36,024 nucleotides of DNA from a virus: IMG/VR virus record IMGVR_UViG_3300023202_000381, positions 1 through 36,024 of that record; one strand, written 5' to 3'. The stretch's first letter is position 1. Each line of letters begins with the position of its first letter. The translations under genes were made by a program, and so were the position numbers. The notes under the pieces were generated by a model. The model did not search any database. It saw only the letters and a program-made list of their open reading frames with translations, and was not told where the DNA came from. Below are positions 374 to 23,389 of the stretch, piece after piece.

Positions 374-456
374 TCAGATCGTATCCGGCGGGAAACCCGC
401 GTTGATCATGCTGTTGGGAATGTTCTCAGGCCGCCACGGGTGTTTCAGTGCGCACA
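374..456 (-). CDS. Possible 27-codon leftover ORF
   Basis: A very short reading frame starts with ATG inside the end of the GT25-sulfotransferase gene and ends 52 bases beyond that gene's stop; its C-terminal half reads NIPNSMINAGFPPDTI. It has no convincing ribosome binding site. It could be a real tiny protein translated by coupling, or chance. It is listed because nothing else explains the 75 bases between the last large gene and the terminator. Confidence 0.2.
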
Positions 457-1754
457 TGACCGACGGCGTTGGCGATCTGCGCGTCGGTCGGTTCGATGCC
501 GAGGTGGACAACGATCCGTTCGATCTGCCCGGCCGGGTCGGTGCGCAGATCGTCGAACTCGATGGTCAGGTGATCGGTCTCAGCGAGGAACGCGGCCTTA
601 CAGCCCCACAGCCAGCGCTGGACGGCTTCGGCCTGGTCATCGGTGACGTGCAGCCAGCCAGTCTCCGTGGCGGATCGCTTCTTCAGTGACCGGATCGATT
701 CCGCAAGCGGCCGGTCGATGTGGATCACCCGAAGGGCGTCGCCGCAGACTTCGCGCAGTTCCTCGCCCATGGCGCAGAGGTGCGGGTACTTGCCGCCGGC
801 GATCGTGTTCTTGAAGAACGCCTCGCGCCGCTTCTCGTCGATGAACGATCGCAGCTCATTGACGAGTTGCTCGCGCGGCACGGCCAGCTCGGTCGAAGGG
901 AACGGATACGCCCGTTCGCAGAGGTGTGCCAAGGCGATCGCCTCGAACCCACCGCGGGGCTCGTAGCCGCCGAGCTGGTTGCCCATGTGGACGCCGAGCT
1001 TGTGCAGCACGCCCGCCAGGCAGCTTGAACCGGATCGGTGCAGGCCAATGACGGCGACGAACGGGGGCAGCTCATCGGGCTGCTTCTGCTGCCACGGGCC
1101 GTCCGACCAGAAGCGCAGGCTGAAGTTGTTCCCCGCGATGTCGCTGCGACCGCTGTCCTGCCCGATCAGCCAAGGCGATGGGGCGTAGACCTTGTACTGG
1201 CCGCTCTCGTGCAACATCCCCAACCGGTGATCGACGTGGAAACGCGGCCGGTGGGCGTGGTTGGGATAGTCGCACAGGTGCCGGTACGCATCCTTAATAT
1301 AGTTGCCGCGCAGGGCATGGGCGTGCGTGCGGTTGCCATTGCGGACCTTCACGATGCCGTTGTCGACGATGTCGGGCGGGCGCAGGTGCTGGCCACCGAG
1401 CATGATGCCGGCCCAGTCGTCGGCCCCCGGAAGCTTGGCCAGGAATTCCTCGACGACTTCGGGGAAGCGCTGGGGCAGCACGGCGTCGTCCTCGAGAATC
1501 AGCACCGACTCCGCGCCTTCCTGAATCGCCTGCTGCAGGATGCGGACGTGGGATTGATGGCAGCCCCACGCACCGCCGCCGGCGCGCCACCAACCCGGGG
1601 CCGGCACGTGGTGTCCGTCCACGGCGGTGAATCGCTCGATCTCGCGGAACGGCCAACCGGCGCTGGCGACGTTCTCCTGAAACCGCTGCCAACGGTCGGC
1701 GCGGCGGTCGAGGTTGATGCAGACGACCTTGTCGAAGTAGTCCTTCAGGTTCAT
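426..1754 (-). CDS. GT25 glycosyltransferase-sulfotransferase fusion
   Basis: The 442-residue protein has two enzymatic halves. Residues 1 to about 215 match glycosyltransferase family 25 (LPS-type): INLDRR at 13-18, a conserved CHQSHV at 65-70 and the acidic LEDDA at 87-91 for metal and nucleotide-sugar binding. Residues about 230-430 look like a sulfotransferase: GLHRSGSS at 237-244 is the usual 5'-phosphosulfate loop of PAPS-dependent enzymes, and RVIHIDRPLAESIRSLKKR at about 342-360 fits the 3'-phosphate loop. There is no signal peptide, so it should act in the cytoplasm. The start overlaps the stop of the serine-rich mini-gene by four bases (ATGA), implying coupled translation. The fusion suggests that a sugar is added and then sulfated. 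Each domain call is good; the substrate is inferred from neighbours. Confidence 0.8.
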   Translation of the reverse strand: MNLKDYFDKVVCINLDRRADRWQRFQENVASAGWPFREIERFTAVDGHHVPAPGWWRAGGGAWGCHQSHVRILQQAIQEGAESVLILEDDAVLPQRFPEVVEEFLAKLPGADDWAGIMLGGQHLRPPDIVDNGIVKVRNGNRTHAHALRGNYIKDAYRHLCDYPNHAHRPRFHVDHRLGMLHESGQYKVYAPSPWLIGQDSGRSDIAGNNFSLRFWSDGPWQQKQPDELPPFVAVIGLHRSGSSCLAGVLHKLGVHMGNQLGGYEPRGGFEAIALAHLCERAYPFPSTELAVPREQLVNELRSFIDEKRREAFFKNTIAGGKYPHLCAMGEELREVCGDALRVIHIDRPLAESIRSLKKRSATETGWLHVTDDQAEAVQRWLWGCKAAFLAETDHLTIEFDDLRTDPAGQIERIVVHLGIEPTDAQIANAVGHVRTETPVAA

Positions 1755-1948
1755 GATGACGATCCAGATGAAGACGCGGACGAAGAGCCGGACGAATCGC
1801 TGCTGCCAACGTCGCTCGAACCGCTCGGCGTGCTGTCAGTGCCGGCTGACGAGCCGGATGATGCCGGCCCGCTACCGCTGCTGGACGAGTGGCTGCTCTC
1901 CGACTCGCTGACAGACGATGAGGATTTCGCGCTGCCGTGGTCATACAT
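1751..1948 (-). CDS. Small serine-rich protein
   Basis: From an ATG at 1948 this frame gives 65 residues, almost all Ser, Gly, Asp, Thr, Ala and Pro after a short MYDHGSAK head. The composition matches the serine-rich linker of the preceding virion protein. A GGAG lies 11 bases before the ATG. The start overlaps the stop of the virion protein by eight bases, and its stop overlaps the GT25-sulfotransferase start by four, so it is embedded in a translationally coupled run. It could be a free serine-rich acceptor peptide, or the remains of a longer serine-rich tail split from the virion protein. Function unknown. Confidence 0.45.
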   Translation of the reverse strand: MYDHGSAKSSSSVSESESSHSSSSGSGPASSGSSAGTDSTPSGSSDVGSSDSSGSSSASSSGSSS

Positions 1949-3548
1949 GGGGATAGGCACTCCGGATGAACCGCTCGTTGGCCTCGAATTGGCGGCGCGT
2001 GCGGTCGGGGAATCGCAGGCCGGCAAAGCCCTTGCGGATGCCGGTCAGGCTGATCACAAGGCGCACCCCCGGAACCCCCGGTAGTGGTCCATCGTTACTT
2101 CCGAGACTGAACCGGATCACCACCTCATCGCCCTCGACACGCGCCCCGACGAGGACCGGCGCATCCGGCTGACATCCGCACACCTCGACGCTGCCCGGCT
2201 CGCACACGTCGAGGAATCGCGGGTCGATCTTCACGCGCGTGTCGCCGGTCACCTCGGCGATCATCACGTCGTTGAATCGCACCTCCGGCGACTCTTTGAC
2301 GAACAGCGCGGTGTAGCCCGTCTGCGACCAGCTCGCTGGAACGATCGCGGTCGACTTGTCCGAGCCGGACCCGCTGAACGAAGACGGCTCGGAACTGCTC
2401 GAATCGTCGGACCCTCTGGCGCTGCTGCTTGAACTACCGCTTGAGCTGCCGAAACTGCTGGAGCCCGACGGGCTGCCTGAACCGCTTGGCGAGCCGTCCG
2501 ACGACTCGAAGCTCGATCCCGACGATGAGCCGCTGGACGAACTGCCGCAGCGCACCGTGTACGTCGGGCCGTCTTCGAGTTTCACGCCGGGCGGATAGCA
2601 CACCTTCGACGTGTGGTACTTGAGCGTGAAGTCGCAGCAATCGTCCGAAGTGTCATGACCCGGTGTGCCGCCGCTCGACCCACTACCTTCATCGCACGTG
2701 ATGCCGGTGACGACGTACTGCTGGGCGCGGGGCGTCGGTTCCTCGAACGCCTCCTCCAGCTGCACAGCGATCTTCGGTTTGCCGTCGACCTCCTTGACGG
2801 TCCAGTAAGCCGTGCCGCGCGTGGCGGCGATCATCTGAGTCTTCTTCGGGCGGATGTCGGACTCAATCGGCCCCTGCGGCTCGTTTTCCTCGTTGAGCTT
2901 TTCGCCGGTGTGGATATCAAAGATGTCGTAGGTGAACGTGCAGTCTTCCTCGCAATTTTCGCCTGCCTCTCCGTACTTCTGCTCGAGTTTTACGTCGAAC
3001 GTGATCGCCAATGGCTCGGCAATGCCGACCTTGAGCAATGCCCACTTGAGCCCCTTGCCGCCTTCTTTCCAGAGGATCTCCGCGCCGCCGTGGTGACCGG
3101 TCAGCAGAATCGTCTCCTCGTGCTCGATGTCGGCGCGCAGGTGCGTCTCTTCCTCGACGTTGATCCGGCAGGGAATGACGCCGCTGACACAGGCCGGGGC
3201 GATCTTGCCGTCCTTGACCGGCTCGAGGTACACCGCGAAGCGCCCGCGATGGACGGGCACGACTGGCTTGACGCCGATGGCGGTGGCGCGGTTCTTGAAC
3301 TCATCCTCGTTGTCGTTGGGACCGATGATCGGCGAGCTGATGCCCACGGCGCTGAACCGGTCCAAGTCGCCGCCCGTATCATTGCGCACGGGGATGATGT
3401 CGAGTTGGGGGGACACCGCCTGACTGTTACGAGCCAGACCGCGCTGACGGCGACGAAAATCGAACGCCGCGTCAACAAACGCGTTGAACGTCTGCGCCGG
3501 GATGCGCAGCGGATCGCCGGATTGGACTTTTTTCAGGCTATCACCCAT
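1941..3548 (-). CDS. Virion (tail) protein with serine-rich linker
   Basis: The 535-residue protein has a folded N-terminal part (about 1-335), a low-complexity Ser/Gly linker (about 336-399) and a second folded part (about 400-535) with a Cys-rich patch (CEPGSVEVCGC). The start at 3548 is chosen because GAGGAA precedes it by nine bases; an upstream in-frame start lacks a site. It follows the tape measure and another tail gene, so it is probably a tail-tip or tail-surface protein. The linker resembles a flexible stalk exposed on the particle. Its neighbours on both sides are glycosyltransferases, so the serines are plausible O-glycosylation targets. Exact family not recognised. Confidence 0.65.
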   Translation of the reverse strand: MGDSLKKVQSGDPLRIPAQTFNAFVDAAFDFRRRQRGLARNSQAVSPQLDIIPVRNDTGGDLDRFSAVGISSPIIGPNDNEDEFKNRATAIGVKPVVPVHRGRFAVYLEPVKDGKIAPACVSGVIPCRINVEEETHLRADIEHEETILLTGHHGGAEILWKEGGKGLKWALLKVGIAEPLAITFDVKLEQKYGEAGENCEEDCTFTYDIFDIHTGEKLNEENEPQGPIESDIRPKKTQMIAATRGTAYWTVKEVDGKPKIAVQLEEAFEEPTPRAQQYVVTGITCDEGSGSSGGTPGHDTSDDCCDFTLKYHTSKVCYPPGVKLEDGPTYTVRCGSSSSGSSSGSSFESSDGSPSGSGSPSGSSSFGSSSGSSSSSARGSDDSSSSEPSSFSGSGSDKSTAIVPASWSQTGYTALFVKESPEVRFNDVMIAEVTGDTRVKIDPRFLDVCEPGSVEVCGCQPDAPVLVGARVEGDEVVIRFSLGSNDGPLPGVPGVRLVISLTGIRKGFAGLRFPDRTRRQFEANERFIRSAYPHV

Positions 3549-3591
3549 CGACAACGATTCCTCGCGCGGCAACGGCCGCAACATCCATCCC

Positions 3592-4437
3592 TTACATCAC
3601 GGAGTCGGGATAGGGCCGGGCGAAGCACGATGAAAGATCGCCGTGCTTCTGGTAGTGATCCAGCACCCGCTGCGATTGCCGCCACCAGTCGTATCCGAGC
3701 CTGCGATATGTCCGAACCCTTTGCTGGAGTTTCGCCAGCGCGCCCTCGTGCCACTTAAAATGCTCGACCCGGATCGGCATCGCCGCCCGTGCCGCCAGGT
3801 CATAGATGTTGAACAATCGATGGTTCAGCTCCCGGCCGGCGTGGTACGCAGCCTTTTTGACGTATTCGTCGTCGACCCGATGGAATCCGTCGTTGGGCCG
3901 CAGGTAACCTCGATATGCGGCAAGTTTGACCGTGCCGCTTCTGACGCGGGCCAGACCGATCATGACATCGGCGCGCCGTGGGAACTGATCATGGATCGAT
4001 CCGTACGGCCCGCCCGGCGGCTGCACCGGCTCCAACTTGCCCGAGGTGGCCAATCGATCGATGTAAGGAGCCTGGATCGCGTTGAATGGCACGTCATCCG
4101 CGAGCACCTTGCGCAATTCATCGGGATACACGTGAAAATCATCGGCGTCGGCTTGCATCACCCAGTCTTCATCACGCGCGTACTCGTCGAGCAGCGCGTG
4201 CCATATCGGCTTGACCTTGCGCGAAGTGAATTCGTCGACCCATCGAATGATGCGAGATACACCTGCCTGCTCCAGCATCCGCTCAGCTTCGCGCATCTGA
4301 TCGCTGGGCGTTTCATCATTGAGGATCACGATAACGTCCGCAGGCCGGACGCCCAGTGACGTGTAGTGCTCGATCCAATGCGGCAGCAGCGGCAAGTCGT
4401 ACCGCACGCCGATATTCGTCAGCAGTTTGATCGTCAC
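3592..4437 (-). CDS. GT2/GT92-like glycosyltransferase
   Basis: The protein is about 281 residues and has an early VIVILNDETPSD strand, then DWVMQADADDFHVYP with the acidic DADD near residues 97-100, which fits a DxD metal site. A later VEHFKWHEG and a Tyr/Arg-rich helix are typical of GT-A enzymes that act on an acceptor backbone. No membrane segment or signal is seen. GGAGG lies upstream: a TTG at 4443 would be only three bases from it, while a GTG at 4437 has nine bases of spacing and is preferred. It sits directly before the serine-rich virion gene, and the operon ends with a second glycosyltransferase. Donor and acceptor are unknown. Confidence 0.7.
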   Translation of the reverse strand: MTIKLLTNIGVRYDLPLLPHWIEHYTSLGVRPADVIVILNDETPSDQMREAERMLEQAGVSRIIRWVDEFTSRKVKPIWHALLDEYARDEDWVMQADADDFHVYPDELRKVLADDVPFNAIQAPYIDRLATSGKLEPVQPPGGPYGSIHDQFPRRADVMIGLARVRSGTVKLAAYRGYLRPNDGFHRVDDEYVKKAAYHAGRELNHRLFNIYDLAARAAMPIRVEHFKWHEGALAKLQQRVRTYRRLGYDWWRQSQRVLDHYQKHGDLSSCFARPYPDSVM

Positions 4438-4457
4438 GAACAATCACCTCCGCTTGG

Positions 4458-5252
4458 TCAGGTCCCGATCCCCAGTGCCCCGAAGTTGCCTTCGTCGTAG
4501 ACCTTCTCCACGTAGGCCGCGATAGGCTTTTTGATCAGCATCTTGGCGTTGTCGTCCTCGGCGTCCTGGTATCGCACCCACAGGTACTCCCAGCCTTTCT
4601 TCGAGATTCCGCCGATGTCGCCGACGGTCAGGCCCGTCTTGTTCGGGCTGCCGGCGAAACGGAACGTGATCTCCCAGTCGTCTTCGCCGCGTTTCGAGCC
4701 CGATGCGCCGAGGAACAGGCATTCACCGGCAGCCAGTCCCCTGAACGAGGAACTGTTGACCTTGCCAGTGAGATTGAACAGCGCTCCCTTGTAGGCGTTG
4801 GTCACTTGGCTGGCCGGCACGTAGTGCGTCTCGGCGAAGCTGTAGACGGGCACCGTGATGTCAACGCCTTCGACGTTGTCCTGCGTGACGCCGATCGCGC
4901 CCCGGAAGTCTGGGGCGTTCTCTCCCGGGGCGGCGAATGCACCCACGGTCTGAAGCGACTGTGTGATGTGCTGCGTCCCGCCGGACGTATCGAACGAGAA
5001 CGACGATTCACCCGTCTCCGGCTCCTGCTTTTCCAGCGGCACGTAACGCACGGTGCCGAGATAAGCGTCGAGTCCCTCCAGTTCCTCGACTTCGGCGTCG
5101 TCGCGCACAAGGCCGTCGTGTACGAGCGGGGAATTATTGATCAGTTCCAGGCGCGCAGCGCTGTCGTCGGACGTGCCGCGGATCAGATATCCCAGCTCGG
5201 CGCTCTGGTCGTTGAGTCTTCGGCCGTATCGTTCCTGGACGGTGATTGCCAT
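4458..5252 (-). CDS. Putative tail structural protein
   Basis: The 264-residue protein lies immediately after the tape measure gene, where siphovirus distal tail or tail-tip proteins are encoded. It is predicted mostly beta-strand, with no signal peptide or membrane helix. Recurrent features are an acidic EVEELEGLDAYLG stretch and a FSFDTSGGTQHITQS loop. I recognise it as a phage-type structural protein from context but cannot name the family. Upstream spacing to the tape measure stop is 15 bases, consistent with one transcript. Confidence 0.55.
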   Translation of the reverse strand: MAITVQERYGRRLNDQSAELGYLIRGTSDDSAARLELINNSPLVHDGLVRDDAEVEELEGLDAYLGTVRYVPLEKQEPETGESSFSFDTSGGTQHITQSLQTVGAFAAPGENAPDFRGAIGVTQDNVEGVDITVPVYSFAETHYVPASQVTNAYKGALFNLTGKVNSSSFRGLAAGECLFLGASGSKRGEDDWEITFRFAGSPNKTGLTVGDIGGISKKGWEYLWVRYQDAEDDNAKMLIKKPIAAYVEKVYDEGNFGALGIGT

Positions 5253-5267
5253 ATGAATCCGTGCCCT

Positions 5268-7286
5268 CTACGCGAACGCGATTGCGTGATCGTTAATCGC
5301 CCGTTCAATGCGCTTGGTGTTGCGCGCCGTGTCCTCGACACCTTTGGCAATGCGCTCTTCGGTCTTACCCGATTGCAATGCCTGAATCGCAGCTGCATTG
5401 AACGTGCCGCGCACGCCGATCTTCTCGGCCTCCTGCTCGACCACGTCGTCGAGTCCGTCCAGCGCGCGGCGTGCCTTTTCGATGATGTCATCCGGAGAGC
5501 CGGGACCTTCCAATCGCTCCGGGTCGTCAACTGACTCGGCAGCTTCGCGCTTTCGCCGCGCTTCGTCGACCGCTTGCTGGAACTCCCTTCTCGCCTGATT
5601 CAGCGCGTCCTGGGTTGTTTTGCGTTTGGATTCGGCCTCGGCGTCGAGGGCCTTGAGCCGCGCATCGGCTTCCTTGCCGATTTGCGCCAATGTGGCGTCG
5701 TGTAGTTGCTTGGATTGCTTTCGCTGCTGTGAGCGCTGTTGTTCGCGGGCGGCCAGCGCCGCGTCGCGTTGACGGTCGATGCGCCGGTTGTCCGCGTCGT
5801 TCTGCTGGTCGGCCAGCCGCTTGGCCTGATCCACGTCGAATGTGTCGTCGAAGAGTCCCTGCAGTTCGAGCAGTCGCTTGGCGGTCCAGTTCACCGCGCT
5901 GCCCCACGCTTTCTGGAACCCTGCGGTGAACTTCGTCCAGATTTTACTGAGGAATGCCGTCGTCTCGATCCACGCCACTTCGAGCGCATGCGTGGCGATC
6001 TGCAACGCTGCGACCGCGCCGAAGAACGCCTCGCTGGCGATCTTGAGGAACCCGGTCTTGAACGCCAGCCATAGGCGGTTGAGTTGGTCGATGCCCGTCT
6101 GCCACGCGAGCTTGAGCGTCAGCCACAGAATCTTCGCCGCCAGGCCGATGTCGCCGGCGGCGAGCGCATCTCCGATGCCGCGCCACGCCGCAAGCGCGGT
6201 GTCCTTCAGCGCGTTGAAACGCTTGCCAAGCCAATCGAGCGCCTTGCCGCCCGCGCCGGTCGCTTGAATGATGAATGCGCCCAGCGCCGCGAATGCGGCG
6301 ATGACCAGGCCAATCGGAGAGACGAGAAACGTGATCGCCGCCGCCAGCAGTTTGAGGACGGCGACAATAGTCGTGACGACGGTGATCAATAGGCCAATCG
6401 CCGAACCAAGACTGGAGATGATCGTGCCCAGCACGACCAGAGCCGCGCCGGCGGCCAGCACGATCGCGGCGACTTTGAGCACCGTGACGATGACCTGGCG
6501 GTTCTGCTTGATCCACTCACCGGCCTTGGTCGCGACCGTTGTGAACCTTTCTGCGACCGTCTGCAGTATCGGAGCCAGAGCCGCGCCAATGTTGAATACA
6601 CCCTGCTTGATCACTTTCCACAGCGAATCGAGCGCGTCGGTGAACTGCTCGGCGGATTCGGCGTCCTCCTTGCTCATGGTCAGGCCCAGCCGCCGGGCTT
6701 CGGCCTGAAGCGCCTCGATACCCTTGGCCCCGGCGGCGAACATCGGCAGCAGATTCGTGCCGGTGCGGCCGAACAGGCTCATCGCGATCGCCGCGCGCTT
6801 GGTCGGGTCCTCGACCTTGCCGATGCGGTCGGCCAGCAGCTTGAACTGCTGCTCCGGCGACAGGCCGTCGAGGTCTTCGAACTTCAAACCCAGTTCATCC
6901 AGCGCGTCGGTCTGCGTCGACAGCCCACGTCCGGCGTCGAAGATCGATCGCTGCATCTTGCGGAACGCCATCTCCAGCGACTCGAACTCGGTGCCGGTCT
7001 GTGACGCGACGAACCGCAACTCGCTGAGCGTCTCGACGCTCAGGCCGGTGCGCTTAGCCATCTTGGCGACTTGGTCGCCGTATCCGCTGAACAGCTTCGC
7101 CGACGCCGCAAGCGGCGCGAGGATCGCCGCGCCGAGGCCCACGACCTTCAGGCCAAGGTTGCGGATACCCTGGCCGAAGGCCTTGAGCTTCTTCTCGGCG
7201 GCGCGGAGTCCTCGCACCAGCTTGCTGTCGTCAGCAAACAGCTCGACGAACGCGCGGCCTGCTCGAATGCCTTGGGTCGACGCCAT
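5268..7286 (-). CDS. Tail tape measure protein
   Basis: The 672-residue product has the usual tape-measure layout: an N-terminal helical region (FVELFADDSKLVRGLRAAEKK at 13-33), a conserved block around 90-200 ending in SLFGRTGTNLLPMF, a long hydrophobic Ala/Val/Ile-rich segment (about 265-345) and a C-terminal Gln/Arg/Lys-rich coiled coil (about 490-600). Tape measure proteins set tail length and help DNA cross the cell envelope. GGGAGAGGT lies five bases before the ATG. At 672 residues it implies a rather short siphovirus tail, near 100 nm by the usual proportion. The gene is separated from the tail chaperone by about 1.8 kb of unexpected genes. Confidence 0.9.
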   Translation of the reverse strand: MASTQGIRAGRAFVELFADDSKLVRGLRAAEKKLKAFGQGIRNLGLKVVGLGAAILAPLAASAKLFSGYGDQVAKMAKRTGLSVETLSELRFVASQTGTEFESLEMAFRKMQRSIFDAGRGLSTQTDALDELGLKFEDLDGLSPEQQFKLLADRIGKVEDPTKRAAIAMSLFGRTGTNLLPMFAAGAKGIEALQAEARRLGLTMSKEDAESAEQFTDALDSLWKVIKQGVFNIGAALAPILQTVAERFTTVATKAGEWIKQNRQVIVTVLKVAAIVLAAGAALVVLGTIISSLGSAIGLLITVVTTIVAVLKLLAAAITFLVSPIGLVIAAFAALGAFIIQATGAGGKALDWLGKRFNALKDTALAAWRGIGDALAAGDIGLAAKILWLTLKLAWQTGIDQLNRLWLAFKTGFLKIASEAFFGAVAALQIATHALEVAWIETTAFLSKIWTKFTAGFQKAWGSAVNWTAKRLLELQGLFDDTFDVDQAKRLADQQNDADNRRIDRQRDAALAAREQQRSQQRKQSKQLHDATLAQIGKEADARLKALDAEAESKRKTTQDALNQARREFQQAVDEARRKREAAESVDDPERLEGPGSPDDIIEKARRALDGLDDVVEQEAEKIGVRGTFNAAAIQALQSGKTEERIAKGVEDTARNTKRIERAINDHAIAFA

Positions 7287-7345: not shown

Positions 7346-8056
7346 ATGAGCACGCAGGCAGTCATCGTGAAGCGTCGAAACGGACGGAAGACCACAGATG
7401 AAACTGTGGAGATTCCGGATGACGCGACCCTCGTCGCAGCCGCAATCGAATTGCGCGAACTGGGGGGCGCGCAATTGCCAGCGGCAGGCCGATACGGCAA
7501 TTGCATTGGGCTTTACATCCCGCCCCGGGATTACTTCGTCGGCAACGTTGATCCTTTTACCGGTGAACGCGGTCCAACTCGTAAGGGCGGAACCATTCCT
7601 CCAGTCTGTGCCTTCTGGCTTGGTACGGACGCTCGTATCGCGGAAGCTCGATACGAGCGTAACCCCATCGACATCTACTATTACTGCAAGAGAACCGACG
7701 GCATTCAGCGTGAGCTGTTCCACGATGAGCCGCAGGACATCACTGAAGGCGCGGTTCGGATCGTCGAGCAGACCGAGTATGAGCGAAATCCACATCTGCG
7801 TGAGCTTGCATTGCGGCATCACGGTCGCACCTGCGTTGTGTGCGGATTTGATTTCGCCAAGGTTTACGGTGACTGCGCAGATGGCTTCATCCACGTCCAT
7901 CACTTGACGCCTTTGTCGAGTGTCGGCGCTGCTCACACAGTCAACGTAGAGACAGACCTGATTCCCGTTTGCCCAAATTGCCATGCGGTCATACATCTCA
8001 ACGACCCACCCTATTCCCCCGCCGAAATGCGGGAGATGATTTCAAAGCACCGCTGA
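7346..8056 (+). CDS. HNH endonuclease, inserted on the opposite strand
   Basis: The 236-residue protein has an N-terminal domain of unknown type and a C-terminal McrA-like HNH fold. CxxC at 163/166 and CPNCHAVIH at 209-217 form the zinc knuckle, and HVHHLTPL at 183-190 supplies the catalytic histidines. Such enzymes cut DNA as restriction, homing or cargo nucleases. It is read opposite to every neighbour and uses visibly more A/T-rich codons. No strong ribosome binding site precedes its ATG. It splits the tail operon between the small 68-residue gene and the tape measure, so it looks like an acquired gene. The restriction-versus-homing role is unresolved. Confidence 0.85.
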   Translation: MSTQAVIVKRRNGRKTTDETVEIPDDATLVAAAIELRELGGAQLPAAGRYGNCIGLYIPPRDYFVGNVDPFTGERGPTRKGGTIPPVCAFWLGTDARIAEARYERNPIDIYYYCKRTDGIQRELFHDEPQDITEGAVRIVEQTEYERNPHLRELALRHHGRTCVVCGFDFAKVYGDCADGFIHVHHLTPLSSVGAAHTVNVETDLIPVCPNCHAVIHLNDPPYSPAEMREMISKHR

Positions 8057-12238: not shown

Positions 12239-14308
12239 TTACGCCTCGCCCTTCATCTTCAAAGCCCCGCGGTGGTCCTGCTCGCGGACACCGAAGTCGA
12301 TGTACCCACGGAACTGCACGCCCAGCGTGTTGAAGTCCGCGTCGGTCTTCTCGACGGTGGGGCGATCGACGCCGTTGAGGAAGGCGATCTCGATCGCCGG
12401 CAGGCGGTTGGGGTCGGCCAGCAGATACCACGCCTTGCTCGAGGCACCCGTGAAACTGGCGTTGGACAGGTACACGCTGGAGACGACATCGAACTTGCCC
12501 ACGTGCGGGTTGTTCACCGGCTTGGGTTTGTTGGCCGTGGTCGTCTCGTTCAGCTGCATCGAGTTCATCAGCTGCGCCGCCGGCACCTTCAGCGCCGTGG
12601 GCACCAGCAGGATGCTGGCCGGGATGCCCAGCGGCCGGCCGTTGGGCTTGGTCTGCTCGCCGAAGAGCACTTCGGCATCGGTCAGACCATCAACGCTCAG
12701 GGCCGTGTCCGCGCCGTCGGCGAAGTTGCCGTGGTCGGCGTGGAAGAACGTCTTGCCATCGGACTGCACGGGGTTCTTGAGCCACAGTCCCCACACCGCA
12801 TCGGCGATCGACTCGGCAGCGCCCATGCCGATCTGGCGCGGGATGTCGGTAAACGCGCCCATGTCATCGTTGATGATCATCTGGCGCGTCAGCGCGAACA
12901 TGATCCCGTGGGTGTCGGCCTTCTGCCCGAACTTCTGCTCGTCGAGTTTTCCGTGCTTGAGCTCGCCGTCAGCGCTGACCTGCTCGAACTTGAACGCGCC
13001 GGTCATGCGGTATCGGCTGTGCTCCTTGAAGTCGTTGACGCTGGCGATTCTGGCGACCCGACGCCACGCGTCTTCGATGTAGTTGTACCCCTCCAGAAGC
13101 ATCTTGTTGGCGATGTTGGACAGGATGCCCGGCAGCGACGCGGTGCTGAACGCCGCCTGCAGCCAACCGGTCGCATCGCGTCGGAAGCGCGGCAGCTGCT
13201 GGCCGCACGCCAGCTCACAGAACTCCTGGATGCCCACGCCGCGCAGCTTGTCGGCCGCTTCGAGCACCGGCTCGTCGTACAGCGCCTCGATGCGCGAGTT
13301 GGGCAGGCCCGACGCCATCAGCGCCACGGCCTCGAACATCTGCGGGCTCGTGTTGCGCGGACGCGATGACGCGGCAGCGGGCACCTGCGGACGCGAGGCG
13401 CGCAGGATGTGCAATTCGGTCTTGGCCACGTCCCATCCCTCCTCGATGGCCTTGGCCTCAAGGTCGGGGTGCTTGCCTGCGCAAAGTTTCTGGATCGCTT
13501 CGACGCGGCGGGTCTCGGCCGCGATCCGTTGACGCATCTGCGCCACGGGATCGTCGCCGGCGTCCGCCGTCGACGCGGCGAGCGTAGTCGGAGTCGCATT
13601 CGACTTCGGAGCGTTCTTCACCGGTGCTTTCGGCTCGGTCGAAGCGGAGGTGCCGTCGGGCGCATCGGCATCGTCCGGAACCGTGGTGGCGGTCGTGGTC
13701 TGGACGTCCTTGTCCTTCGTGGCGATGTCGGGGGCGGTGTCTTCCATGGACTGTTGCTCCTTGCTGGTGGCGGCGATGCGTGCGCTGGTGTTCGTGTCTG
13801 CTCCGCTGTCGACGAATGAGATTTCCTTGAGGATGGCTCGGCGCACCACGTGCAGCGGGCCGTTGAACGTTCTGCCGTTGACGGTCACCTGCTGGCCGTT
13901 GGGTACGAACTCGGCGTCGATGACCGCAGCGCCGATGCTCGCCTGCCAGGGAAAGCCGTTGGTCGCCGACTTGGCCACATCGCGCGCCCAAGAGGTGTCA
14001 CGGCTGATCAGGCCCTCGGCGACGACGGTTCCGTTCTCGATCGCGACGCGCTGCGTATGCCCAACTCCCTGACGCGGGTTGTGGTCCAGGCGAACCGGGA
14101 TGTCCTGACGATCGATGGCCAAGCCTTCGAGATCGACTACGACCGGGTGCGGGAAGCCGGTGATCCGCATCACGCCGCCGGTATAAGCGACCATGTGGAA
14201 GACAGGATTCTTCTTCTCGGCTTCGCCCGCCGCCTCGATGGTCAGCGGGCACCGGAAGGTCAGATAGTCAGGCTGCTTGTCGTGCTGTGGATTCGGTTCC
14301 GGGGGCAT
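12239..14308 (-). CDS. Prohead protease-major capsid protein fusion
   Basis: The 689-residue protein joins two head proteins. Residues 1 to about 180 look like a serine prohead protease: LDHNP with His76, PWQASIG with Ser124, and RAILKEISFVDSGAD near 158-171. A Lys/Thr/Ala-rich linker of about 115 residues, which may act as scaffold, leads to the capsid domain (about 305-689), with MLLEGYNYIEDAWRRVARIA and the C-terminal RGYIDFGVREQDHRGAL. The ATG at 14308 has GAGGAG ten bases upstream and overlaps the portal end. An internal ATG at 13747 has AAGGAG nine bases upstream and would make a 502-residue scaffold-capsid product. HK97-type maturation is expected. Confidence 0.85.
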   Translation of the reverse strand: MPPEPNPQHDKQPDYLTFRCPLTIEAAGEAEKKNPVFHMVAYTGGVMRITGFPHPVVVDLEGLAIDRQDIPVRLDHNPRQGVGHTQRVAIENGTVVAEGLISRDTSWARDVAKSATNGFPWQASIGAAVIDAEFVPNGQQVTVNGRTFNGPLHVVRRAILKEISFVDSGADTNTSARIAATSKEQQSMEDTAPDIATKDKDVQTTTATTVPDDADAPDGTSASTEPKAPVKNAPKSNATPTTLAASTADAGDDPVAQMRQRIAAETRRVEAIQKLCAGKHPDLEAKAIEEGWDVAKTELHILRASRPQVPAAASSRPRNTSPQMFEAVALMASGLPNSRIEALYDEPVLEAADKLRGVGIQEFCELACGQQLPRFRRDATGWLQAAFSTASLPGILSNIANKMLLEGYNYIEDAWRRVARIASVNDFKEHSRYRMTGAFKFEQVSADGELKHGKLDEQKFGQKADTHGIMFALTRQMIINDDMGAFTDIPRQIGMGAAESIADAVWGLWLKNPVQSDGKTFFHADHGNFADGADTALSVDGLTDAEVLFGEQTKPNGRPLGIPASILLVPTALKVPAAQLMNSMQLNETTTANKPKPVNNPHVGKFDVVSSVYLSNASFTGASSKAWYLLADPNRLPAIEIAFLNGVDRPTVEKTDADFNTLGVQFRGYIDFGVREQDHRGALKMKGEA

Positions 14309-15776
14309 CCGTGTCGGACTCCTCATCGTCGTCGGGTGAAGCGGGTGTGTCGGCGGCGTCGAGGCCGAGCTGGCGCATCAGCTGCCGTTCCTTGGCGCGC
14401 TGGCGCAGTTCAACCTCCCAGTCCTTGCCCTGGCGGGCGTACTCGGCAGCGAGCGTGGTCGTGTTGCTCATCAGGCGCGTCGATTGGGCGTTGGCTTCCT
14501 TGGCCGGATCGACGTGCTCGGTCCCATCGAAGAACCACTGCCCCCGGATGTGCGAGACGAGGTCGCCAGCGCTGCGCAGGAATGCGAATTCCGGGAGGAG
14601 CATCGCCTCCTCAAGCCACGCCGCGAAGATGCGGTCGAGCACGGCCTCAGCCAGGTGCGCCTGCTCGACGCGGATCGATTTGAAGTAGGTCTGGTGATCC
14701 AGGCGGCCGGAGGCGTAGTTGTAGCCAGCGCTGTTGCCGGCCGCGACGTTGAACGGCAGGTTCAGGCAGCGTGCGATCTCGTTGAGAATCTCGCGCTTGA
14801 ACTCGCCGTAACCGGTCGCCGGCTGCTGGGCTTCGATCTGGCCGAGCTTCCAACCGTCGGGCAGCACTGTGGCCATGCGCTTCTCAAGCTCGACGATGTC
14901 CATCGGCTCGAGTGCCTGTGCTTCGCCGTTGGCCGGCGCGTCGGTGAAGAGCACCGCAGCGAAGTCGGCCGCCGTCTCCGCCGCCGCGATCACCGCCAGT
15001 GTGTAACGGCGCAATTGGGCGAACAGCGGCAGCGCCGGCGTGATCTCCGGCACGCCCCGGTGCTGGTCAGGGCGATCGACTCGGAACCAGTGGATCACCG
15101 AGTCGGCAGGCACCACATCGAACTGGTTACGCCATGCACTGAGGTCACCCGGATGCTGGCGTAGGATCGTGTACGACAGCGGGTTGCCGATTGGGTCGAG
15201 GCTGATCCCGTCCACCTCATTGACGCTCGGAAGTAGCGATGCGACCGGTGACGCCACGCGATCGGCTTCGACGAGTTGCACATCCAACATCACCGGCGAG
15301 TCGAGCCGAGGATTCCGGGGGTTCCGGGGGCGGGGGTTCAAGGTGAGGACCGCAAAGACCTCGCCGTCGGTCGTCTTGGCCATGCGCATCGCACGGAGCT
15401 TCTCGGCGAGGTTGATGGCCTTGGCCCAACGTGCAAACGCGGACTCGACGCGGTTGTTGATCGTGGTGTCCGCCGTCAACAGTTGCAGCCTCGGCCCGGT
15501 GCCGATGCAGTCGTTGGCCAGCGTCAGCACGATCCCCTTGGCGTAGCTGTTGTTGGCGACCTCGTAACGGGCTCGCTCACGCAGCTTCTTGCGAACGTCT
15601 GTTGACGCGGCACTGTCCGCCGACAGCGCATCGGCCATCGCCCAGTGCCGGGCGTTCTCGGCAGTGGTCTGAGCCGCGTCGTACCGCGCCCGAACCACCC
15701 CCGGAACCACCGGAAATGCCGGGAGGGACCGGTTCCGGGGGTGGGTCTTCCTTGACCTGCTGCGGAACGGCCACAT
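14268..15776 (-). CDS. Portal protein, lambda gpB family
   Basis: The 502-residue protein carries the family signature TAENARHWAMADAL, then VRKKLRERARYEVANNSYAKG and CIGTGPRLQL early on, and the later LNLPFNVAAGNSAGYNYASG and RLDHQTYFKSI. These fit the lambda-type portal (phage_portal_2), the dodecameric ring through which DNA enters and leaves. The C-terminus is acidic. ATG at 15776 overlaps the previous stop by one base (TGATG), with GGGAGG nine bases upstream. Two insertions look like translated TTCCGGGGG repeats: NPRPRNPRNPR near residues 115-125 and FPVVPGVVRA near 22-31. Confidence 0.9.
   Translation of the reverse strand: MWPFRSRSRKTHPRNRSLPAFPVVPGVVRARYDAAQTTAENARHWAMADALSADSAASTDVRKKLRERARYEVANNSYAKGIVLTLANDCIGTGPRLQLLTADTTINNRVESAFARWAKAINLAEKLRAMRMAKTTDGEVFAVLTLNPRPRNPRNPRLDSPVMLDVQLVEADRVASPVASLLPSVNEVDGISLDPIGNPLSYTILRQHPGDLSAWRNQFDVVPADSVIHWFRVDRPDQHRGVPEITPALPLFAQLRRYTLAVIAAAETAADFAAVLFTDAPANGEAQALEPMDIVELEKRMATVLPDGWKLGQIEAQQPATGYGEFKREILNEIARCLNLPFNVAAGNSAGYNYASGRLDHQTYFKSIRVEQAHLAEAVLDRIFAAWLEEAMLLPEFAFLRSAGDLVSHIRGQWFFDGTEHVDPAKEANAQSTRLMSNTTTLAAEYARQGKDWEVELRQRAKERQLMRQLGLDAADTPASPDDDEESDTDAPGTESTARQAA
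15695..15744. repeat. 14-base inverted repeat inside the portal gene
   Basis: CCACCCCCGGAACC (15695-15708) is exactly reversed and complemented as GGTTCCGGGGGTGG (15731-15744), with a 22-base loop. Both arms contain the dispersed TTCCGGGGG unit. It lies within the first 30 codons of the portal and would make a strong hairpin in the mRNA. Confidence 0.85.
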
Positions 15777-21890: not shown

Positions 21891-23258
21891 TCACTGTGTA
21901 TCGCCGGCAGGCGACACTCCAGCGGCGCGTTCCGCCTTTCGCCCGGTGAACTTCTCCCACCGCTCAATAATCACATCGCAGTAGGCTTGGTCGAGTTCCA
22001 TCAGGAACGCCCGCCGTCCGGTCTGCTCGCAGCCGATCAGCGTCGAACCGCTGCCGCCGAACAGGTCCAGCACGTTCTGGCCCGGCAGCGAGGAATACTG
22101 AATCGAACGCACCGCAAGTTCGACCGGCTTCTCGGTCAAGTGGACCATCGCCTGCGGGTTGACCTTCTTGACGTGCCACAGGTCGGTCGCATTGTTCGGC
22201 CCGTAGAAGTGGTGGCCCGCGCCTTCCTTCCAGCCGTAGAAGCAGATCTCAAACGCGCCCATGAAATCCTTGCGCGTCAGCACCGGGTGTTGCTTGTCCC
22301 AGACGATGCCCTGCGAGAAGTACAGGCCTGCGGCCTTGAGCGGCGCGGGGTAGTTGCCGAGGTTGGCGTACCCGCCCCAGATATAGAACGAGCCGCCCGG
22401 CTTGAGCACCCGCGATGCGTTACCGAACCACGCCAGGAGCATCTCGTCGAACGCCTCGGCCGTGACGAAGTCGTTCTCCAGCGGCCGGTCCTTGGCCCGC
22501 ATCTTCTTCCGCGCCTTCGCCGGGTCGCCAACGCCGCGTCCGACATCGAAGCCCTGGTGGTGCAGCTGTGCCTTCTTGTTGTTGAACGAGCTGAGGCCGG
22601 CCGCGATGGCCGTGTTGCTGCGCGGTTCCACGCGGACGTTATATGGGGGGTCCATCGAAACCAGGTCGATGGTCGGACCGCCCGCGGAATCGAGCAGTCG
22701 ATCCAGATCCGCCACGCTGCCGCTGTCGCCGCACAAGAGGCGGTGATCACCCAGCACCCAGATGTCGCCGCGTTGCGTGATCGGATCGTCCGGCGGCTCG
22801 GGCACCGAATCCGGGTCGGTCAGCCCTTCGGCTACGTCGCCGTCGAGCATCTTGGCCAGTTCGGTCTCGTCGAAGCCAAGCAGGCCCAGGTCGTACTCGG
22901 CCTGCTGCAGGTCCTTCAACTCGATGGGCAGAAGGTCCATGTCCCACTCGGCCAGTGTCGCGGTCTGGTTATCCGCGATGCGATACGCCTTGACCTTCTC
23001 CGGCGGCAGGTCGGTGGCGACGTGGACCGGCACCTTGGCCAGCCCCAACTTCTTGGCCGCCTTCCAGCGCGTGTGGCCGACGATGATGACGCCATCGGCG
23101 TCGATCACGATCGGTTGGCGGAACCCGAACTCGGTCAGGCTGGCCGCCACGGCGTCCACCGCGTCGTCGTTGATGCGAGGGTTGGCCTCGTAGGGCTTGA
23201 TGGCGTCGATGGGCCGCAGTTCTACGTCAAACGTCTTGGTCGCATTTCCCGGGGTCAT
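21891..23258 (-). CDS. ParB-like domain/DNA methyltransferase fusion
   Basis: The 455-residue protein opens with a ParB/sulfiredoxin-type domain (about 10-105, with IKPYEANPRIN and GHTRWKAAKKLG), followed by an N6/N4 DNA methyltransferase. Catalytic motif IV is DPPYN at 203-207 and the SAM-binding motif I is DLFGGSGST at 398-406, the beta-class order. TEKPVEL at 375-381 is also typical. Such fusions are frequent in phages and probably modify phage DNA against restriction. GGAGGT lies six bases before the ATG at 23258. No cognate nuclease lies beside it. Confidence 0.9.
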   Translation of the reverse strand: MTPGNATKTFDVELRPIDAIKPYEANPRINDDAVDAVAASLTEFGFRQPIVIDADGVIIVGHTRWKAAKKLGLAKVPVHVATDLPPEKVKAYRIADNQTATLAEWDMDLLPIELKDLQQAEYDLGLLGFDETELAKMLDGDVAEGLTDPDSVPEPPDDPITQRGDIWVLGDHRLLCGDSGSVADLDRLLDSAGGPTIDLVSMDPPYNVRVEPRSNTAIAAGLSSFNNKKAQLHHQGFDVGRGVGDPAKARKKMRAKDRPLENDFVTAEAFDEMLLAWFGNASRVLKPGGSFYIWGGYANLGNYPAPLKAAGLYFSQGIVWDKQHPVLTRKDFMGAFEICFYGWKEGAGHHFYGPNNATDLWHVKKVNPQAMVHLTEKPVELAVRSIQYSSLPGQNVLDLFGGSGSTLIGCEQTGRRAFLMELDQAYCDVIIERWEKFTGRKAERAAGVSPAGDTQ

Positions 23259-23389
23259 GGTTGCACCTCCCTGTGCTGGGGTTCGTGTGGAAAACCGGAC
23301 ACGCAAAACAAACTCTGCCTATGCTGGCGACTGTTCCCGCCGCGGTCTCCTGCGCCCAGGCCCGGGAAGGAACCATGCCATGCACTTCT

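Follow-up and report, generated by a model that had tools for sequence, protein, structure and literature searches.

Why should a tailed phage carry a fused glycosyltransferase-sulfotransferase gene at the end of its tail module, directly against genes for serine-rich proteins? The window, i.e. the whole stretch of DNA analysed here, is the 36,024-base virus record IMGVR_UViG_3300023202_000381, in which tailed-phage genes for terminase, portal, a protease-capsid fusion and the tape measure protein (TMP) are found. A leftward run consists of the TMP gene, a conserved post-TMP gene, a GT2-type glycosyltransferase, a putative virion protein (Vir), a short serine-rich protein (SerP) and a fusion of a GT25 glycosyltransferase with a sulfotransferase (GT25-ST). 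The initial annotation had proposed from the last four genes, at 426-4437, that the phage glycosylates and perhaps sulfates a surface-exposed tail protein. All four are present, leftward and in that order, with Pfam domains scoring above their cut-offs, and the glycosylation proposal is supported by what can be read from the genes. The favored answer, with a probability of roughly two in three, is a phage-encoded virion glycosylation cassette that would O-glycosylate and sulfate a serine brush on the virion; a phage transferase lies in the structural module together with a candidate structural acceptor. Related loci are denoted by L-numbers (L002, L014 and so on), and their open reading frames (ORFs) were called by a simple ORF rule. 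The features central to this proposal are the following.

426-1754, minus strand: GT25-ST, 442 residues (Pfam, alignment of 29 homologues, AlphaFold2 and Foldseek)
1080-1754, minus strand: GT25 half, residues 1-225
426-1079, minus strand: sulfotransferase half, residues 226-442
1751-1948, minus strand: SerP, serine-rich protein of 65 residues (homologues in L002, L009, L010, L014, L019, L020 and L022)
1941-3584, minus strand: Vir, putative virion appendage protein of 547 residues, after the tape measure gene (homologues in 21 loci)
2550-3584, minus strand: Vir N-domain
2355-2549, minus strand: Vir Ser/Gly linker, 65 residues (346-410), candidate acceptor region
1944-2354, minus strand: Vir C-domain

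The pairing of the fusion with serine tracts carries the argument. Viral contigs were searched with an alignment of five fusions, which returned 183 relatives; the best 80 were kept, and removal of copies more than 90% identical left 31 fusions with enough flank to judge. A serine tract was defined as at least 30 residues, half or more of them serine, within 5.5 kb and on the same strand. The control comprised loci sampled by the post-TMP gene only, of which 39 were GT25-negative with at least 3 kb downstream. Tracts lie near 29 of the 31 fusions, nearly all upstream and within 2.6 kb, compared with 3 of 27 GT25 genes without sulfotransferase (p=7e-11, Fisher) and 14 of the 39 GT25-negative tail loci (p=4e-7, Fisher), where the significance is somewhat overstated, since any two loci below 90% identity are treated by these tests as separate observations. 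The initial annotation had named enzymes lacking serine-rich neighbours as the finding that would speak against it; even the two exceptional fusions have comparable neighbours. In L061 (34% GC), serine is replaced by (TPSITPSIS)n and ETPTPTPT repeats in a 569-residue protein; in L048, the gene at the same place encodes short SSSSGSGSGS-type linkers. The fusion is nearly always accompanied by a tract of hydroxyl residues, and such a tract can occur without the fusion. The stricter proposition that every serine tract needs GT25-ST was rejected on the basis of the serine-positive, GT25-negative tail loci. The same pairing is seen in dozens of other phages. Four loci (L046, L050, L059 and L060) bear IMG identifiers (2936165592, 2687453341, 2894042756 and 2824432718, respectively) resembling those of isolate genomes, and judging from this format cultured strains with the cassette probably exist.

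The tract accompanies the fusion on different folded carriers. Comparison of the folded parts by hhalign gave a probability of 0.6% or less for the Vir N-domain versus the carriers c9 and c21, as opposed to 99.8% for c9 versus c21, and single carriers in L061, L062, L066 and L073 match no other carrier, single-sequence profiles being weak. By these profile comparisons there are at least two unrelated carrier families, whose common element is the Ser/Thr-rich tract.

The tracts themselves are maintained as protein. All six codons occur among the 73 tract serines of the window (AGC 24, TCG 20, TCC 10, TCA 10, TCT 5, AGT 4), the longest run of an identical codon is 3, and switches between AGY and TCN occur in 12 of 37 adjacent pairs versus 17 expected at random. 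Across twenty loci of 34-70% GC, the window among them, both groups of serine codons and almost the full set of six are in use, identical-codon runs are 2 to 6 long, and in most loci AGY/TCN alternation is near the random rate. AGY and TCN codons cannot be interchanged by a single base change. The mixed codons, the alternation and the short runs show that serine is selected in the protein and does not reflect slippage of a DNA repeat. Simple-sequence DNA or an out-of-frame artefact was ruled out by the codon mixing together with the conserved homologues, and GC-rich chance by fusion-adjacent tracts in contigs of 34% GC (L066, and the Thr/Ser/Pro tract of L061). Across 118 distinct tracts the composition is 57% Ser, 11% Gly and 1.2% Tyr, and lengths exceed 400 residues in L053 and L060. 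A heptapeptide, [KS]SSGSS[FLM], recurs in otherwise variable serine tracts (L025, L026, L027, L131, L140, L145, L147, L164, L173, L176 and L177), and the window linker carries SSSGSSFESS; the heptapeptide could be a recognition site.

In the window, the tract genes are coupled to the enzyme gene. The start/stop overlaps previously reported to join the last three genes were borne out, with 8 nt shared by the Vir stop and SerP start (ATGTATGA) and 4 nt by the SerP stop and GT25-ST start (ATGA). The linker, earlier put at roughly 64 residues, measures 65, and SerP has the 65 residues claimed for it. A serine-rich ORF overlaps GT25-ST in this stop/start manner in seven cases (the window, L004, L203, L202, L019, L025 and L031), and in most loci GT25-ST overlaps or abuts the ORF upstream. 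SerP homologues reach 106 residues in L014 and at least 100 in L002, sharing with the window the N-terminus M-DYGSAKSSSSV-ESESS; the N-terminal signature GS(S/A)KSxxSVSES, or one close to it, is kept in SerP homologues of otherwise diverged phages and hosts. The nearest relatives of the window are two prophage-like loci, L014 and L015, in one Phycisphaera metagenome-assembled genome (MAG), with 72-85% identity in Vir, together with IMG/VR contigs. The window virus probably infects Planctomycetota (for metagenomic contigs we infer the host). The expectation that the gene order would recur elsewhere held in part: the four-gene order including GT2 was seen in the window alone, while the three-gene core Vir-SerP-GT25-ST is present in L014 and L019, and a fused Vir-Ser protein paired with GT25-ST is found in L004, L015/L203, L202, L025 and L031.

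Both halves of the enzyme are predicted to be intact. The GT25 half matches PF01755 (E=8e-10, 39.3 bits versus a cut-off of 24), and its E88-D89-D90 motif, invariant in the 29 aligned homologues, aligns with the EDD of human procollagen galactosyltransferase 1 (COLGALT1). The sulfotransferase half matches PF13469, Sulfotransfer_3 (E=3.5e-8, 34.4 bits versus a cut-off of 27), and residues G237, R240, G242, S244, R348 and S356 of its 3'-phosphoadenosine 5'-phosphosulfate (PAPS) site are invariant in the same alignment. The fusion thus combines a GT25 family score and an E-D-D/DXD-type motif with a score for PAPS-dependent sulfotransferases and the residues of the 5'-phosphosulfate loop and 3'-phosphate binding. 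The AlphaFold2 model has a predicted local distance difference test (pLDDT) score of 90.5. Profile matches include procollagen galactosyltransferase 1 (3e-14), mimivirus R655 (1e-10) and the tyrosylprotein sulfotransferase TPST2 (2e-3). By profile and Foldseek comparison, the solved structures nearest to the GT25 half are COLGALT1 and mimivirus R655, and those nearest to the sulfotransferase half are tyrosylprotein sulfotransferases (TPST2 with bound 3'-phosphoadenosine 5'-phosphate) and STF1. Several of these relatives act on proteins and the same folds serve other acceptors, so the structural similarity may be taken to support, not to prove, a protein acceptor. In every homologue, even at 38-42% identity, the two halves remain joined, and this suggests that they act one after the other on a single substrate. 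PAPS should be available, because the host MAGs contain adenosine 5'-phosphosulfate kinase, its source. The fusion was also considered as a host housekeeping gene, and this was rejected: any match at E<=1e-30 was found in just 6 of 392 sampled Planctomycetota genomes, two of them already known carriers and the rest with GT25-only or split matches. A divergent GT25-ST was observed within an 882-residue ORF on a Phycisphaera MAG contig (L201:5909-12001), close to an ORF whose first 200 or so residues are (PSPSVN)n and which may encode a host, not a phage, surface protein.

The proposed sequence of events is as follows. Vir would be exposed on the virion surface, where its Ser/Gly linker and the translationally coupled SerP would together make up a disordered brush of serines. 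Serine hydroxyls, or a sugar that another transferase had attached to them, would receive a sugar from the GT25 half. The sulfotransferase half would then sulfate this glycan, with PAPS made by the host as the donor. The appendage would in this way gain a dense, proteoglycan-like coat of negative charge, and the glycan would differ between phages through GT2 or through the pyruvyl transferase, GT32 and methyltransferase genes that take its place in relatives. Association, coupling and enzyme class point to the tract as the acceptor. We likewise infer the order of the reactions, that the particle contains Vir and SerP, and any function in adsorption or shielding. Since GT25-ST is constant across loci and the other transferases vary, GT25 is favored as the enzyme that starts the chain rather than one that extends it.

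The position of Vir in the particle bears on this scheme. The initial annotation called it a tail protein, and gene order, i.e. its place after the tape measure gene, agrees; no profile names Vir, and its β-rich segment (residues 60-186, pLDDT mostly 70-86, inside a poor overall model) resembles the capsid decoration proteins of phages T1, FCWL1 and Pam3, DUF2190-type proteins and cyanophage tail-fibre-like proteins. Such barrels form the bases of surface appendages. Because moderate confidence is confined to the β-rich segments of the model, the decoration/fibre-base match counts as a lead and not as an assignment, and Vir is best described as a putative virion protein of head or tail, with gene order pointing to the tail. 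PHROGs gave no match for Vir, SerP or the post-TMP gene, and no relatives of Vir were found in annotated phages.

Several observations weigh against a glycosylated serine brush. The sequence match of the sulfotransferase half to TPST2 is weak (E=2e-3), and the Vir model is mostly of low confidence, with a mean pLDDT of 47.9. No GT25 gene at all is present in 14 of the 17 serine-positive loci of the tail-gene sample, so the tract does not require the fusion. The GT25 and sulfotransferase families also act on lipopolysaccharide (LPS), polysaccharides and small molecules, and because of these varied substrates the acceptor is not readable from the family.

The main rival accounts for family and map position: GT25-ST and GT2 as morons of lysogenic conversion that modify LPS or capsule in the host envelope and keep other phages out, and that lie at the end of the tail module because the attachment site is next to that end. 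GT25 is a classic LPS family, the PHROGs class of the matches is 'moron, auxiliary metabolic gene and host takeover', and in relatives an opposite-strand integrase gene (cluster c8) often follows the cluster. Such morons would not be expected on the late-gene strand, overlapping stop to start with a structural-type ORF, nor would GT2 be expected between two tail-module genes. Envelope modification also fails to predict the near-absolute pairing, which follows Ser/Thr tracts onto unrelated carriers and is lacking in GT25-only genes, and it leaves the switch to Thr/Ser/Pro repeats in L061 unexplained. It is considered unlikely. Rather improbable, too, is that the tracts serve simply as flexible spacers linking folded modules, with the enzymes modifying some other substrate, e.g. 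another virion protein. Ser/Gly linkers are common as spacers, and the tracts at 14 of the 39 GT25-negative tail loci fit this function; spacers have no need to track GT25-ST so closely, to be dominated by serine over glycine (57% and 11%) or to extend beyond 400 residues, and SerP is almost wholly tract. The sulfotransferase might instead act independently of the GT25 half, by direct O-sulfation of protein Ser or Tyr or on a host metabolite, as its nearest solved relatives, which include tyrosylprotein sulfotransferases and STF1, would allow. The near absence of Tyr from the tracts and the invariable fusion of the two halves make this very improbable.

The virion glycosylation cassette, which thus remains the preferred explanation, has further neighbours.

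3592-4437, minus strand: GT2-type glycosyltransferase, PF13704, in a variable slot
4458-5252, minus strand: conserved post-TMP protein, 264 residues, which served to sample related tail modules
5268-7286, minus strand: tail length tape measure protein (phrog_8462, E=1.9e-46), which puts the cluster in the tail module

GT2 matches PF13704, Glyco_tranf_2_4 (E=3e-10, 40.8 bits versus a cut-off of 27.5), and no relatives of it were found in the viral contigs or phages searched. In L015, this slot is occupied by genes for a polysaccharide pyruvyl transferase and a GT32-like protein. Of 50 neighbour genes sampled around fusions, at least 15 encode glycan enzymes (an approximate count, summed over Pfam families presumed non-overlapping) versus 2 of 65 in serine-negative tail loci (p=8e-5); they comprise GT2, GT32-like, GT61, pyruvyl transferase and sugar epimerase genes, with methyltransferases besides. 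A small protein family, c5, occurs in 18 of 31 fusion loci, 0 of 27 GT25-only loci and 0 of 79 tail-gene loci (examples at L046:2758-3294, L042:6604-7014 and L056:6454-7005). It lies mostly between the serine-rich gene and GT25-ST, is fused C-terminally to the serine-rich protein in L010 and L019, and has the pattern PGSELKKML...C.C...RA..M...C..N..TI..WL.EEA..RGLP...LV..AI. It is possibly an adaptor or chaperone of the modification.

Among the serine-positive, GT25-negative loci, a different gene set precedes the serine-rich gene, consisting of an unknown protein of about 337 residues, a methyltransferase-type gene and a protein of about 300 residues (L145:5354-7776, L173:5780-8222, L176:8811-11209 and L177:6324-8757). 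The last of these has weak MptE/CST-I (sialyltransferase-like) matches, and the set may be an alternative glycosylation cassette. An MptE/Maf-like enzyme of such loci was considered as a flagellin-type Ser/Thr transferase; the match that was checked fell below the cut-off (21 versus 34.6 bits) and is a lead only. Genes directly downstream of the serine proteins in these loci are mostly restriction, helicase and recombinase genes, not glycan enzymes. GT1-type and radical SAM/GT-like genes are present in GT25-negative L136.

Elsewhere in the window, a DUF6398 protein (PF19935) is encoded at 1-306 on the plus strand; L203 encodes a similar protein past GT25-ST, again on the opposite strand, so DUF6398 is a conserved flank of these prophages. 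An HNH endonuclease (PF01844, E=2e-5) at 7346-8056, plus strand, adjoins the tape measure gene from the opposite strand. The capsid protein fused with the maturation protease is at 12239-14326, minus strand (phrog_4523, 'major head and protease protein'), and a fusion of a ParB-like domain with a DNA methyltransferase is at 21891-23306, minus strand (phrog_498, E=3e-125).

Few systems of phage virion glycosylation are known, and they are rarely predictable from sequence. A visible serine tract and an enzyme that tracks it across unrelated carriers together offer a rule by which glycosylated phage proteins might be recognized in sequence. If the proposal is true, the coat is a sulfated glycan made by a phage via a fused sulfotransferase, and an enzyme with both activities on plain Ser/Gly repeats would also be of use as a tool. 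Three host MAGs contain 111, 85 and 37 sulfatase matches, and with hosts so rich in sulfatases the glycan may matter for adsorption. A wider proposal, for which the odds are distinctly unfavorable, is that a broad class of Planctomycetota phages bears a virus-encoded sulfated glycoprotein coat, built from a serine brush of 30 to more than 400 residues, a dedicated GT25-ST, often c5, and exchangeable tailoring enzymes. This coat would mimic the sulfated glycans on which the sulfatase-rich host feeds, and the glycan-binding surface of the host would thus capture the particle. The literature search, outside which many subscription papers lie, returned no description of the GT25-ST fusion or its pairing with serine tracts, no phage sulfotransferase acting on virions, no sulfated-glycan coat made by a phage and no such planctomycete phages.

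Three known systems invite comparison. The serine-rich repeat glycoproteins of Streptococcus and Lactobacillus have a long serine-rich region encoded beside dedicated transferases and variable accessory transferases. The present loci share the long serine-rich domain (65 residues each in linker and SerP, more than 400 in L053 and L060) beside transferases, with variable accessory ones, and differ in their phage tail module context and in the presence of a sulfotransferase. No GtfA/GtfB initiator pair was found by Pfam in the main ORFs of 426-7286, where the only transferases are PF01755/PF13469 and PF13704, and by this test the cluster is not a serine-rich repeat protein locus. Vir ends in ...RFIRSAYPHV with no LPXTG-type anchor, and SecA2/SecY2 were absent from the ORFs scanned, which were part of those in the window. 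Mycobacteriophages Che8, Corndog and Myrna encode glycosyltransferases that decorate proteins of their own capsid and tail tube (Freeman et al. 2023, cited in PMC12363180). Both cases involve phage transferases for the structural proteins of the phage itself, by prediction in the present one; the present system differs in its serine-rich candidate acceptor, the fusion of GT25 to a sulfotransferase and the Planctomycetota hosts. The enzyme itself may be compared with mimivirus L230, a glycosyltransferase-lysyl hydroxylase fusion that acts on viral collagen-like proteins and whose glycosyltransferase half is related to human GLT25D1/COLGALT1 (PMC9614988). Both are viral two-domain enzymes with a COLGALT1-related half and a low-complexity viral substrate, a candidate one in the present case. 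In contrast to L230, the second half of GT25-ST is a Sulfotransfer_3 domain instead of a lysyl hydroxylase, and its candidate substrate is serine-rich rather than a Gly-X-Y collagen.

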